This document shows, piece by piece, positions 48,830 through 52,890 of a stretch of 64,000 nucleotides of DNA (position 1 is its first letter; every line of letters starts with the position of its first letter). Below the pieces are notes generated by a model. The model worked only from the letters and a program-made list of their open reading frames with translations, ran no database searches and was not told where the DNA came from. Origin of the DNA: Acidovorax sp. NCPPB 3576 (GTDB taxonomy: Bacteria; Pseudomonadota; Gammaproteobacteria; Burkholderiales; Burkholderiaceae_C); the NCBI RefSeq assembly GCF_028473605.1, contig NZ_CP097267.1:4208501-4272500 (forward strand), read 5' to 3'. The position numbers were made by a program, and so were the translations under genes.

Positions 48830-48904
48830 CTCCTCGTAGTTCAATGGATAGAACGAGTGCCTCCTAAGCGCTAGATACAGGTTCGATTCCTGTCGAGGGG
48901 ACCA
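48830..48904 (+). tRNA. tRNA-Arg (anticodon CCU)
   Basis: A 75-nt gene that folds as a complete cloverleaf. The 7-bp acceptor pairs 48830-48836 with 48894-48900 (one G-U pair). The D stem is GTTC/GAAC. The anticodon stem AGTGC/GCGCT encloses the loop CTCCTAA, giving anticodon CCT. The T arm is ACAGG-TTCGATT-CCTGT. CCA is encoded. It reads the rare AGG codon. Arginine tRNA genes of this type are frequent integration sites for mobile islands. Confidence 0.95.
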
Positions 48905-48953
48905 TCGACCGATCCGAGAGAGTCCAAATGCGATAGCTGCTGAGGGACCAGAT

Positions 48954-49421
48954 TTACCCCGCAGGGCCCATTGCGGGCAGAGTCGGTGGGTAAGCGGGGC
49001 AAGTTCGGAACAAGCTCCCGAAGTCGTCGTCTCGGAGGTCCGCAGAGGGCACTAACTGCCGATTGCGCTCAATGCTCCTGGCAGCCGGATGCCATAGCCG
49101 GGCCGCCATGGCTCGCCTTACCTCTGACTGATAACGAACAGGGTCGGGCGCGCAGAAGTGCCGATGGGCATGGCGCTTCCAATTGCACCAATGGCAGCAA
49201 GCCGCAATGTTTGCTGGATGATCCAGGCCACCTCGTTGACGCTCCACCAAATGCTCAGCCGTAGAGCGAAGCGGATCGAGCAGGGCTTCAGGAAGACCGT
49301 ATGCCTGCGCAAATCTTTCGCGGCATTCCGGCTCCCAGATCGGCAACTCACAATAAATGCAGAGGCCCCGTTGGGCAAAGTAGGCACGCTTGCGGAGGGT
49401 GGTAGTAGTGATTTTCAGCAT
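48954..49421 (-). CDS. HNH endonuclease family protein
   Basis: A 155-residue protein with a compact HNH fold: two early cysteines (CIYCELPIW), then TAEHLVERQRGGLDHPANIAACCHWCNWKRH containing the HxxxxRxxGG...N...C..CN..K signature (central His, Asn and second zinc-binding CxxC). This type is widespread as a free-standing nuclease of unknown role, often on islands, phage-like regions or defence loci. It lies on the opposite strand, 50 bp after the tRNA-Arg. Its codons are less GC-biased than in flanking genes. The remaining C-terminal residues are Pro-rich. Confidence 0.82.
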   Translation of the reverse strand: MLKITTTTLRKRAYFAQRGLCIYCELPIWEPECRERFAQAYGLPEALLDPLRSTAEHLVERQRGGLDHPANIAACCHWCNWKRHAHRHFCAPDPVRYQSEVRRAMAARLWHPAARSIERNRQLVPSADLRDDDFGSLFRTCPAYPPTLPAMGPAG

Positions 49422-49748
49422 GGTCGATCAAAAACAGTGGTGCTGTTTCCGTCGCCAATGACTGGTCGGGTCGGACGCCGAGGCTTGTGCCGAATCGGCT
49501 GTGCAGGGAATTGCTCCCATGCGGTCGGTTTTGCGATACCGAACGCTTGCAATTTACGCGTTCACACCACCGCACGTCAAGCCAGAAGTTATCGGCTGCA
49601 TTGGTATGGGGGAATAGAAATCTCTCGCTGAAAACCGTGCCAGTTCGGTTCCGGCTCGGAGCACCATGGGCCGCCCATGGCTCGGTTTATTCCTTGCCGT
49701 GCGATATCCCTCGAACGCCGGAGTCCGAAGACCAGACACGCGATGCAC
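49422..49748. other. 327-bp stretch without a recognisable gene
   Basis: I see no coding sequence that I can support here. The base composition is noticeably less GC-rich than most of the window. A short palindrome, CCATGGGCCGCCCATGG, lies at about 49664-49680. No copy of the tRNA 3' end that would mark an attachment site is visible. Confidence 0.5.
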
Positions 49749-50600
49749 TCAGGCAGGTCGCCGCCGGCGCCATGCCAGAAACCCCAGCATGGCCGTCAGC
49801 ATCGTCAGGCCGATGTGCGACAGCGTGGGGATGGCAGCGGCGCTGGCCGGCACCGCGGCAATCACCGCCGGCCCACCCGGATCGGAGATCGTGCCCACTG
49901 CCGGATCGGCGTCCCCTGGGCCGTTGTCCTCGATCTCGAAGGTCACCGTGTCGCCGCTGATCTGGGCGCCTGGCCATTCGAACCACTCCGACTGCGCCGC
50001 GCCCGTGGTGCGCGGGCCGTACTTCATGAAGCGGCTGCCCGACGCCAGCGCTTGCGGGTACTTCAACGTCACCGCGACCTTCCCCGCGCAGGTGGTGGCC
50101 ACGAAACGGAAGACGCCTTGGGGAAACTGCGCGCCCGCCGGAGCGCTGGAAGGCACCTCGAATGCGGTCTGCGCCGTATCGAAAGTGCAACCGCTGACGC
50201 CTGCCAGCGAGGCGGTGATCTGCCCGGCGCCCGAAGGCGACGCACCGGTGAACGCATCTTCGATGCCTGGCGCGCGCACTACCAGATGCAGGGTCGATTC
50301 CTTCTGGATGTTGTAGTCCGAGAGGGTCCGGCCGTCTTCCAGTTGCTTGCCCGCGAAGGTCAGGCGCTGCTGCTCGGGCGCAATGCCTTCCTGGTCCTGG
50401 ATCTTGGCCTTCACGTTCTCAATCGAGTCGCTGGGCTCCACGTCCAGAGCGATGGTCTTTCCAGAGACGGTCTTCACGAAGATCTGCATGGCCCACGCGC
50501 CCTGCGAAAGGGCGGCGAGCGCAATGAAGAGGGCCCATCGGGCAGCCCATCTCCGAATATCCAGAAAGGGGGGAACAGGCACGGGGAACAGAAAAACCAT
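49749..50600 (-). CDS. Exported ubiquitin-domain protein with IPTL-CTERM sorting tail
   Basis: A 283-residue secreted protein. Residues 1-37 form a signal peptide ending in GAWA. Residues 38-113 align without gaps to eukaryotic ubiquitin, with 63 of 76 identities to the human protein by my hand alignment; the predicted mature protein starts at ubiquitin Met1. Lysines 6, 11, 27, 29, 48 and 63 are kept and K33 is Gln. The hydrophobic patch is altered (L8V, I44T; V70 kept). The tail is RAPGI instead of RLRGG, so no conjugatable diglycine is exposed. Residues ~115-255 resemble the choice-of-anchor U domain ([39 protein letters not shown]). The C-terminus, [25 protein letters not shown], is an IPTL-CTERM anchor. 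An in-frame TGA two codons upstream fixes the 5' limit. No Shine-Dalgarno is evident. Confidence 0.9.
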
Positions 50601-50794
50601 GGATCAACTGGCAGTAGGTCAAAAGACCCCGGATCATGCGTTTCTGACTGCCTTCTTACCAGCGCTCCGGCCCTGGATCTGCGGAAAGTCGCGTTTTAAA
50701 GGGGCTTGCGCCAGTCAGGCCCTCGAACACAGGGCGGCGAGCCAGAATTTCGCCGGAAAGAGAAGGCATGCGGGCAGCGCCTGGGGAACGCGCC

Positions 50795-51055
50795 TCAACG
50801 GTTCAGCATCGCCACGACCGCGACGATGCCGATCACCACCACGGCCACCGCCCGCGCGGCCCAGCCACCCAGGCTGGCGGCGGTCATCCCGGCGATGCCG
50901 GCTTTCACGGTCCCGGCGTGGCGGCCCTCGTGGGTGCCGGATTCAAAGGCAGAGCGCCTGCTGATGGCTGCCGCCTGCGGATGGCCGCAGCCGGGGCAAG
51001 CGGTCGCCTGATCGGAAATCTGCCGGTTGCATTCGGGGCATGGAACGAGTGCCAT
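50795..51055 (-). CDS. Zinc-ribbon membrane protein, 86 residues
   Basis: The N-terminus is a zinc ribbon ([26 protein letters not shown], two CPxC knuckles at residues 6-9 and 20-23). A basic linker and one hydrophobic helix near the C-terminus follow ([19 protein letters not shown]). Such zinc-ribbon/TM proteins are common and uncharacterised. A GGAG ribosome-binding site precedes the ATG at 51055, which I prefer to the upstream in-frame ATG at 51094. It is on the same strand as the ubiquitin-domain gene, which starts 194 bp further on. Confidence 0.8.
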
Positions 51056-51215
51056 GGTTTTCTCCTCCTGGTTCATGGGTTGAACGATGGCCACAACCTA
51101 CCTGCGGCCATCGCACCATAGCCCGGCCCTTGTCCCCGGCTGTTTCGAAATGCGTCGAAGCCGCGCGGCACCGACCGCGTCACGGCGGGCGGTCGCGGCG
51201 AAGAGGGCGAGCCCC

Positions 51216-52730
51216 CTAGCGGGCCGCGCCCAGCTTCTCGAAATCCGCATCCAGCCGCGCCAGCGATGCCGCGATCTGCGCGCGCCGGGCCTTGATCCAG
51301 CCGTCCTGCTCGGCCGCGCGCTGGGAGGCCTGGCGCAGCATGCGATCCATTTCGGCAGGCTGCGGGCCGCCGGCGGTCTGGCGGTTCCTGACGATCGCTA
51401 CGGGGTCGAGCGTGGAACGGAACTCGGCCTCGGACAGGGGTAGCACCTGTGCAAACTCCGTTCCCTTCACCGTCTCGGCGTAGATGCGTTGCGCCTGCGC
51501 ATACGGAAACGCGAGGGGTCGAATGTCCTTGGCCTTCGCGTATTCCACGACCTCCGAGGCGAAATGGTGGCCGACGCGGAAGGGCAGCTTGTATTGGCGC
51601 ATCAGTACGTCGGCCAGCTCCTGCGAGGCGGTCCAGTCGCTGTTGAGTTCCTCCAGCGCCCGCTGGGGATCGATCACCAGGTTGTTGAGGATGCGGGTCC
51701 AGTTGTTCAGCACGCCGGCCGCCGCCTGCACCATCGCGGCGTTGGTGCGGACCTCCTTGGGGTCGCTCATGCCGGGAGGGATGTTGTGCGCCTGCAATGC
51801 GGGGCCCATGCCCAGGTTGAGCGCCGTGGAAGCGTCGCGGCGGGTGCTGTTGAGCAGGCCGGGGTTGCGCTTTTGCGGCATGGCACTGGAGACGTACGTG
51901 TTGCCGCCGCCTTCCTGCAGCAGGATCCAGGGGCGCGGCTGGGCGTATTGGGTCATCACGTCTTCGATGAAGCTGCCGGCATGCAGGGCGATGGCCATGA
52001 CGATGGCGCCGGCCTCCACGGGCTGGTCCACGGCGGAGATCTGCGCGGCGTCGTAGGCGTTGTCCACCGTGGCGGAAAAGCCCAGGTAGTCCGCCATGCG
52101 CTGGCGGTTCAGCGGCCAGCTGGTGCCGTTGAGCACCGTGGTGCCCATGGGCGAGCGGTCCATGCGGGCATAGGCTTCGCGGATGCGCTGGGCGTCGCGC
52201 TCCAGCCCGGCGGCGATGCCCAGCAGATAGTGGCCGTAGCTGTTGGGCTGGGCGGCCACGCCGTTGGTGTAGTTGGGCACCACGGTGGCCCGGTGCTTGC
52301 CGGCGAGTTCGATCAGGGTGGCGGTGGTTTGGTTGAGCGCCTCGGCCAGGTGGAGCATTTCATCGCGCAGGATGGCGGACCGCGCGGTGGCCAGCATGTC
52401 CTGGCTCGATCGGCCTGCGTGCAGCAGCGTGATCTGGGGGCCGGCGGCCTCGATCAGCAGCGGCTCGAAGGTGATGACCAATGAGGGGCGCTTGCCACCC
52501 GGCTTGTCGCCGTTGGCCAGCACCTGGGTGATGCCTTTGTAGATGAGGGGCGACAGCGATGGGTCGAGCAGGCCTTCGTCGGTGTTGATGACGGCAGTGG
52601 CCTTGTTGATCTCGCCGAGCCAGAAGAAATCGTCGTGCTTTTTGGCGGGGGCCTGGGCACCCGCGTGGGGCATGAGGGCCGCCAGGGAAATGGCGGCGGC
52701 AATGGCGAGTCGGGTGGGTTTCATGGGCAT
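51216..52730 (-). CDS. Exported argininosuccinate-lyase-like protein of the fumarase/aspartase superfamily
   Basis: A 504-residue lyase-fold protein with a signal peptide (MPMKPTRLAIAAAISLAALMPHAGAQA), which is unusual because superfamily members are cytosolic. The signature loop SSAMPQKRNPG (from residue 281) and the GRSSQDMLATA segment, corresponding to GRSRNDQ of argininosuccinate lyase, are present. The catalytic TH-LQ-AQP motif reads T155-N156-GVAAQP, so the general histidine is Asn. It may therefore catalyse a different elimination, possibly on a secreted or imported amino-acid adduct. Upstream on the same strand is a tiny membrane protein gene. An alternative start is 52724. Confidence 0.85.
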   Translation of the reverse strand: MPMKPTRLAIAAAISLAALMPHAGAQAPAKKHDDFFWLGEINKATAVINTDEGLLDPSLSPLIYKGITQVLANGDKPGGKRPSLVITFEPLLIEAAGPQITLLHAGRSSQDMLATARSAILRDEMLHLAEALNQTTATLIELAGKHRATVVPNYTNGVAAQPNSYGHYLLGIAAGLERDAQRIREAYARMDRSPMGTTVLNGTSWPLNRQRMADYLGFSATVDNAYDAAQISAVDQPVEAGAIVMAIALHAGSFIEDVMTQYAQPRPWILLQEGGGNTYVSSAMPQKRNPGLLNSTRRDASTALNLGMGPALQAHNIPPGMSDPKEVRTNAAMVQAAAGVLNNWTRILNNLVIDPQRALEELNSDWTASQELADVLMRQYKLPFRVGHHFASEVVEYAKAKDIRPLAFPYAQAQRIYAETVKGTEFAQVLPLSEAEFRSTLDPVAIVRNRQTAGGPQPAEMDRMLRQASQRAAEQDGWIKARRAQIAASLARLDADFEKLGAAR

Positions 52731-52809
52731 GGCATGTTGTCTCTGTAATGGGTTCGTTCCACCGGCGCCGGTGGCCGTGGGGCGATGATGGTCGCGCCTC
52801 AGACCGTGC

Positions 52810-52890
52810 TCAATAGACGCCGTAGCGGTACGCAAAGTAGAGGGCGGCGAGGGTGCCGACGACGGCGAGGACGGTCATTGCTTTGCGCAT
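52810..52890 (-). CDS. Very small membrane protein, 26 residues
   Basis: The frame starts with ATG at 52890 behind a good GGAG ribosome-binding site at suitable spacing. It encodes MRKAMTVLAVVGTLAALYFA followed by YRYGVY, a single transmembrane helix with a basic N-terminus. It is too short for most gene finders. It lies between the lyase and the DUF2127 gene on the same strand, 59 bp after the latter's stop, and has no recognisable family. Confidence 0.5.
   Translation of the reverse strand: MRKAMTVLAVVGTLAALYFAYRYGVY

Follow-up and report, generated by a model that had tools for sequence, protein, structure and literature searches.

Ubiquitin is taught as a eukaryotic protein. Among bacteria, the closest described system is the ubiquitin of Bacteroides fragilis (BfUbb, gene ubb), which in the parts of the papers covered here is exported with a signal peptide that ends, and is cut, exactly at Met1, has lost the terminal glycines and is encoded in a region varying between strains (PMC3352274, PMC5705921). 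BfUbb is a free protein of 76 residues, 63% identical to human ubiquitin, and is reported in the covered part of the 2017 paper to be antibacterial, inhibiting other strains; the same text counts B. fragilis as one of few bacteria with ubiquitin (PMC5705921), and a 2025 review, as far as its covered text goes, states that "bacteria encode ubiquitin homologs" and no more (PMC12288473). The plant-parasitic nematode Globodera rostochiensis is described in the same partial source as secreting a ubiquitin that consists of a signal peptide, ubiquitin and a C-terminal extension of 12 residues, which is cut off in the plant (PMC5705921). The IPTL-CTERM motif is reported, in the part of the paper covered, on the S-layer protein of Methylomirabilis lanthanidiphila (PMC8671808). 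The literature that we searched (titles and the starts of abstracts, with few subscription papers covered) held no description of an anchored exported ubiquitin or of a phylum-wide spread, which is weak evidence of absence.

Here we describe a gene for a predicted exported and anchored ubiquitin in the window, i.e. the whole stretch of 64,000 nucleotides that was analysed. The protein resembles BfUbb in that its predicted signal peptide ends exactly at Met1 (from the sequence and a simple rule) and in that the terminal glycines are lost; it differs in that the ubiquitin domain is 83% identical to human ubiquitin and is joined to a choice-of-anchor U stalk and an IPTL-CTERM tail; toxicity is a reported property of BfUbb. 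Over residues 1-72 the window protein matches eukaryotic ubiquitin and polyubiquitin in sequence and in predicted secondary structure, but it lacks the di-glycine, is present as a single copy without ribosomal fusion and carries a signal peptide. The arrangement is also like that of the Globodera protein, which, however, is eukaryotic and unanchored. From surface proteins of the IPTL-CTERM/XrtH (exosortase H) type, with which it shares the signal peptide, the choice-of-anchor U domain, the IPTL-CTERM motif and an XrtH gene in the genome, it is set apart by its head, since the three other anchor-U-like proteins read here carry Kelch, NHL or fn3 heads. Taken together, our preferred explanation, to which we assign a probability of roughly 0.5, is an anchored, non-conjugating ubiquitin head on a mobile accessory surface protein that most likely binds or antagonises neighbouring cells. 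The features of the locus are as follows.

48830..48904, + strand: tRNA-Arg(CCT), edge of the variable site that holds the window gene
49749..50600, - strand: exported ubiquitin surface protein, whole gene, 283 aa (ORF, profiles, orthologues; the start codon is not certain)
50490..50600, - strand: signal peptide, residues 1-37, predicted cleavage A-W-A before Met38, which is ubiquitin Met1 (sequence, simple rule, model helix 11-32)
50262..50489, - strand: ubiquitin domain, residues 38-113 (63/76 identities to human ubiquitin)
49863..50141, - strand: choice-of-anchor U domain, residues 154-246 (NF041766, 82.8 bits)
49758..49832, - strand: IPTL-CTERM sorting signal, residues 257-281, hydrophobic helix and Arg-rich end (TIGR04174, 31.6 bits; model helix 262-280; XrtH in genome)
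50795..51094, - strand: small zinc-ribbon-like protein with profile matches below cut-off, far edge of the variable site; a flank, outside the system

Anatomy and predicted sorting of the window protein

The preliminary description had placed the ORF at these coordinates on the minus strand and had counted about 63 identities over 76 gap-free residues, and both agree with our data. The alignment of residues 38-113 with human ubiquitin is gap-free (63/76 identities, 83%), the differences being L8V, T9S, T14A, E16D, T22S, K33Q, P37A, D39E, I44T, L71V, L73A, R74P and G76I. Membership in the ubiquitin family (PF00240) is clear at 98.3 bits (Pfam cut-off 25.4). Lys48 and Lys63 are retained, and Ile44, around which the surface patch bound by most ubiquitin-binding proteins is centred, is replaced. 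Residues 72-76 read R-A-P-G-I, i.e. the Gly75-Gly76 end of a protein modifier is missing; with the Leu73-Arg74-Gly75-Gly76 tail lost there would be no entry into the E1-E2-E3 cascade, and the domain is therefore predicted not to be a conjugation substrate. Hence, "near-authentic" ubiquitin, as it was called earlier, is apt for the sequence but not for the conjugation tail. Modelling of the fold, then proposed as a check, gave strands and helix in ubiquitin order (AlphaFold2, 10 sequences in the alignment, mean pLDDT 79), with block pLDDT values of 85-94 across residues 41-110; the model further has hydrophobic helices at both ends, over residues 11-32 and 262-280, and a middle part rich in beta structure.

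The signal peptide, the anchor-U domain and the IPTL-CTERM tail of the preliminary description were likewise borne out. Signal peptides were called throughout by a simple rule (a hydrophobic stretch with small residues at -1 and -3), and here the call coincides with the model helix 11-32. Both anchor elements score above their cut-offs, i.e. choice-of-anchor U at 82.8 bits (NCBIfam, 32) and IPTL-CTERM at 28.3 bits (Pfam, 20.8) and 31.6 bits (NCBIfam IPTL_CTERM, 20.5), the latter being the motif of XrtH substrates. The predicted mature protein is not free ubiquitin, as it has 170 more residues including the anchor. Overall, we consider this anatomy and sorting highly probable. Neither a sigma-70-like promoter, sought in 49600-51100, nor a clearly visible ribosome-binding site was found for the gene.

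XrtH is encoded elsewhere in the window genome (252.6 bits, cut-off 86); in 14 control genomes its profile gave one match, in Methanosarcina acetivorans, below the cut-off. From the tail and the presence of the enzyme we infer that the window protein would be cleaved and surface-exposed via XrtH. The genome, which supports the Comamonadaceae host named earlier, consists of one 5.41 Mb contig with 100% completeness and has a single PF00240 match, and the same 14 control genomes gave no match to PF00240. It holds eight IPTL-CTERM loci, one with an internal stop, and the anchor part without ubiquitin is matched at four further places, of which three lie in long ORFs and the fourth is interrupted by two stops. 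The heads of the three long ORFs comprise Kelch repeats with fn3, fn3 with a tachylectin match below cut-off, and NHL repeats with fn3; the Pfam IPTL-CTERM profile passes in the first two but not in the NHL ORF. Since anchor-U-like parts thus stand behind other heads in the same genome, ubiquitin appears to replace a recognition-type head on a common chassis. The earlier suggestion that ubiquitin serves as a display module fits better with these Kelch, NHL and fn3 proteins than the suggestion of host interference does (see below).

Predicted exported ubiquitins across bacteria

When the contigs of 84,980 species genomes were scanned, 388 stretches came up, and up to 327 of these encode a relative; as anchor motifs were among the baits, not all 327 need hold ubiquitin. 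The best 80 of the 327 were kept, a ranking by similarity to the query that may favour exported forms relative to the 247 others. In the light of up to 327 stretches, the statement that ubiquitin is essentially absent from bacteria can no longer be upheld, yet ubiquitin is rare per species. Counting the own genome, it was detected in 11/399 genomes of the family, in 4/399 of the order above the cut-off (7/399 at E 0.001) and in 2/398 of the phylum, the second of these two being a weak, distant match. All 80 kept loci have a ubiquitin domain, and in 77 of these best 80 of 327 the signal peptide, by the simple rule, ends directly before Met1; this does not hold for L017, which has a short start, for L030, from a Euryarchaeota MAG, whose ubiquitin lacks a signal peptide, or for L059. 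The junction is also seen in 74/76 loci found without the signal-side bait and in 20/23 whose search alignment omitted the signal peptide, so the bait is not the cause of the pattern.

L059, a contig of a Nitrospinota MAG with a four-repeat polyubiquitin, is likely eukaryotic contamination and was excluded. The remaining 79 prokaryotic loci (best 80 of 327 minus L059) are distributed over 12 named phyla plus one unplaced, and 56 of them are MAGs. The 23 non-MAG records span six phyla and include Saccharibacillus, Cohnella, Ruminococcus albus, Rhodoferax lacus, Haliea and Chromatocurvus; Methylotenera, a Prochlorococcus record and some goat or sheep gut samples are other sources in the kept set. 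Among the window protein and its 79 relatives (80 proteins scanned) the anchors vary: 22 have an autotransporter barrel, 8 (Pfam) or 9 (NCBIfam) IPTL-CTERM, 7 SLH, 5 an outer-membrane barrel and 4 a T9SS tail, where classes can overlap and the remaining proteins matched none of them. Dyella acidiphila (L043) and G170 (L107) have a signal peptide and ubiquitin alone, ending near residue 73-74, and as judged from their sequences these ubiquitins of Proteobacteria would be secreted in free form, as the B. fragilis protein is.

Profile-based samples of the family and the order, which are not shaped by baits, yielded 13 non-own genomes above the PF00240 cut-off (10 and 3, respectively). By eye, seven of these have the signal junction, five lack a signal peptide and one (L111) is distant; thus, even within this family, not every bacterial ubiquitin is of the exported kind. 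The five signal-less ORFs (L102, L103, L106, L109 and L110; Comamonadaceae, at about base 1494 on the coding strand) have a hydrophobic tail resembling IPTL-CTERM, matched by the Pfam profile in one of the five and there below cut-off. Their ubiquitin is possibly held at the inner membrane face.

Over residues 1-72 the 79 loci (best 80 of 327 minus L059) have a median of 65 identities to human ubiquitin (lowest 47). Pairwise comparison over the same residues (3081 pairs, uncorrected) gave median pS and pN of 0.89 and 0.11, i.e. synonymous sites are saturated. GC at the third position of the ubiquitin codons varies with that of the contig (Pearson 0.90, Spearman 0.89, n=76), and as codon use follows each host these are resident genes. 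Mean identity is 0.96 in the core, 0.90 in the patch and 0.80 on the opposite face, using position lists that represent these regions, and 0.28 at tail positions 73-76; the high conservation of residues 58-65 is in part due to the bait DYNIQKES (present in 77/79). Gly75-Gly76 is retained in 4/78 relatives and Gly76 in 5/78 (from the best 80 of 327).

Given these numbers, eukaryotic contamination or chance resemblance had to be weighed. Contamination does occur in the collection, as L059 (1/80 loci) is plain polyubiquitin, and 57/80 records are MAGs. On the other hand, the window genome is a single contig, ubiquitin-bearing orthologues are present in nine other species genomes of the genus, the GC of the third position is host-like (r 0.90, n=76), the sequence is conserved, and a bacterial signal peptide and anchor lie within the same ORF; we accordingly rejected an artefact, including an assembly artefact absent from related isolates, as extremely improbable. 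With respect to origin, a tree was computed from 72 columns with 93 prokaryotic rows and 40 of 169 eukaryotic ones, leaving out L059, the distant L111 and six duplicates (L001, L084, L085, L089, L104 and L105). It needs 17 changes between bacterial and eukaryotic labels, of which the starred branches force only one, the bootstrap not being settled; a single bacterial clade was not rejected (p-AU 0.204), and there may have been one transfer from eukaryotes or many. Both residues of the D16/S22 signature are present in 28/79 bacterial sequences versus 13/216 distinct eukaryotic repeats, and because it also occurs in eukaryotes the signature is no proof of origin.

In 10 of the 79 loci (best 80 of 327 minus L059; L007, L010, L011, L013, L014, L020, L025, L027, L046 and L061) the ORF adjoining the exported ubiquitin belongs to one family of approximately 330 residues. 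This family gave no Pfam match and no PDB match by sequence, and by profile a single PDB match at E 0.17; one relative is named "SET domain-containing protein" in UniRef. The model of the neighbour (pTM 0.85) had 19 PDB matches at E<=0.001, all of them chains of SETD3, Rubisco LSMT, SETD6 or the plastid RNA-polymerase complex (E 1.7e-5 to 8e-4, TM 0.34-0.46 by query, rmsd 10-14), and in the model the SETD3/LSMT-like fold class is clear with a loose overlay. All seven ubiquitin lysines are kept at nine of these ten loci and six at the tenth; as lysines are well kept in other loci too, this is no proof of a link to the SET-like protein. Searches run without a positive control found the family in 0/369 genomes of the class, and one member used as query had no match in the window genome. 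Next to the window gene we recognised neither a partner nor an immunity gene, and PADLOC gave 0 matches for four proteins.

The gene has changed location within Paracidovorax

Ubiquitin-bearing orthologues are present in 10/17 Paracidovorax species genomes (own included), and 14/17 match the query somewhere. They occupy three sites: the window gene and that of G011 lie on the tRNA-Arg side, that of G015 near tRNA-Lys and the seven others by a uvrA-like ORF (by eye). Homology between the three sites is restricted to about the gene itself, and the gene has changed its location within the genus. At the uvrA-like site the window genome has no ubiquitin gene and 300 bases between the conserved flanks; in G010, which has no ubiquitin gene, the corresponding distance is 76 bases.

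The variable site of the window extends from tRNA-Arg(CCT) to the zinc-ribbon-like gene (48905-50794), and in P. valerianellae (L131) the tRNA-Arg site holds a different insert of ~4.8 kb with an integrase-like ORF (by eye). Adjoining the ubiquitin gene is a low-GC HNH-like ORF (48954-49421) with weak HNH and IscB matches below cut-offs, and a blastn comparison of this stretch with the syntenic locus of G011 gave no match that reached 120 bases. Beyond the far edge, 51216-52835 encodes a lyase of the argininosuccinate lyase superfamily with, by eye, a signal-peptide-like N-terminus, below the cut-offs of all 13 NCBIfam models matched. A tRNA remnant suspected by eye near 49640 had no ARAGORN or Rfam tRNA match and was discarded, and no convincing direct repeat of the tRNA end was found at the window site.

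Among the 79 loci, tRNA genes occur less than 1 kb from the ubiquitin ORF in 8 cases, against an expectation of 1.2 based on the remainder of these loci (Poisson 3e-5, a value that is overstated because the question was asked post hoc and because two of the eight, L005 and L006, are close kin). Carriage by phages was not detected (0 matches in 50,697 phage records), while 13/72,556 plasmid records match the query. The sole strong one is on a plasmid of Ruminococcus albus 7 (NC_014824.1, 388138-388431; 72% over residues 35-126), annotated as "ubiquitin family protein", which means that annotation pipelines already recognise genes of this kind. In two Pseudoalteromonas records the ubiquitin part is matched weakly (44% and 56%), and in the ten remaining the match covers residues 94 or later. 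A mobile accessory gene adjoining a tRNA-Arg hotspot is our best reading of the window gene.

Within the genus, Gly75-Gly76 is present in 0/10 orthologues and Ile44 in 8/10, and there are changes to V8 (3/10), T48 (1/10) and F68 (1/10); in the P. konjaci copy only 47 of 72 residues are identical. Over the 10 orthologues, pN/pS averages 0.25 in ubiquitin, 0.40 in the stalk and 0.54-0.60 in the two ends. The ubiquitin sequence has long been kept, although conservation is stricter in the wide set than within this genus.

Possible roles of a surface-held ubiquitin

We infer export, cleavage at Met1 and a surface position from the sequence. The protein would be exported by Sec and cut by signal peptidase, leaving ubiquitin Met1 as the new N-terminus, and XrtH, the enzyme being encoded in the genome, would then handle the IPTL-CTERM tail. 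Ubiquitin would form the outer head on a choice-of-anchor U stalk of a type shared with other heads in this genome; without the terminal Leu73-Arg74-Gly75-Gly76 this head would be non-conjugating, and the gene would be carried as a mobile accessory beside the tRNA-Arg hotspot. Finally, the ubiquitin surface may bind an envelope protein of neighbouring cells, as reported for the B. fragilis ubiquitin, but tethered to the producer. Because the B. fragilis protein is free and the window protein anchored, contact or shedding would be needed. The preliminary description cited B. fragilis as the precedent for a secreted ubiquitin, which is supported by the covered part of PMC5705921; the antibacterial action reported there was absent from its interpretation. 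By this analogy we put a tethered binder of envelope proteins first among the possible roles, an inert cap second and interference with eukaryotes third. A role of the head in recognition or antagonism is thus suggested tentatively, at somewhat less than even odds, and the target would be a guess by analogy.

The ubiquitin might instead be an inert cap, i.e. a stable, protease-resistant N-terminal fold that protects the stalk or helps it fold, its binding surface being irrelevant. This would agree with I44T in the window copy and with the changes at positions 8, 48 or 68 in some genus copies, and ubiquitin is the outermost N-terminal part in 77/80 loci (best 80 of 327). Purifying selection is only modestly stronger on ubiquitin than on the stalk, and together with the divergent P. 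konjaci copy these pN/pS values (0.25 and 0.40) also fit a loose structural role. However, a median of 65/72 identities to human ubiquitin over 79 loci, despite saturated synonymous sites, goes beyond what fold stability should need, and the patch is more conserved than the opposite face (0.90 vs 0.80, on the position lists used above). We regard such a cap as unlikely, although it is the stronger competitor of the tethered binder.

Paracidovorax species are plant-associated and protists graze in the goat or sheep gut, where some carriers were sampled; together with the conserved sequence this would suit a surface ubiquitin whose partners are the ubiquitin-handling proteins of a host, be it plant, protist or animal, as had been suggested earlier for host or protist enzymes. 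That suggestion is weakened by our data: the di-glycine is gone, as in 74/78 relatives, and Ile44 is lost in the window copy. Moreover, we saw nothing that would point to delivery into host cells, and the carriers include Methylotenera and a Prochlorococcus record. Interference with eukaryotes is, in our view, quite improbable.

Returning to the anchored, non-conjugating head, these 72 residues are found again in almost unchanged form, in most cases directly after a bacterial signal peptide, in 79 loci (best 80 of 327 minus L059), and exported ubiquitin seems to be a little-known surface module and not an isolated oddity. The varied anchors and the mostly lost tail separate the ubiquitin fold and surface from ubiquitination; this supplies natural non-conjugating ubiquitin variants, with the SET methyltransferase as a possible partner, and raises the testable question of what ubiquitin binds outside a cell. 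In the broadest form, which we hold to be a little short of an even chance, exported ubiquitin would be a widespread bacterial surface module in which Met1 is regenerated, the anchors are lineage-specific and the surface rather than the tail is selected; in one subset an adjoining SETD3/LSMT-like methyltransferase may methylate the conserved lysines, or another residue, before export, and the window gene would represent the XrtH-anchored branch at a tRNA hotspot.
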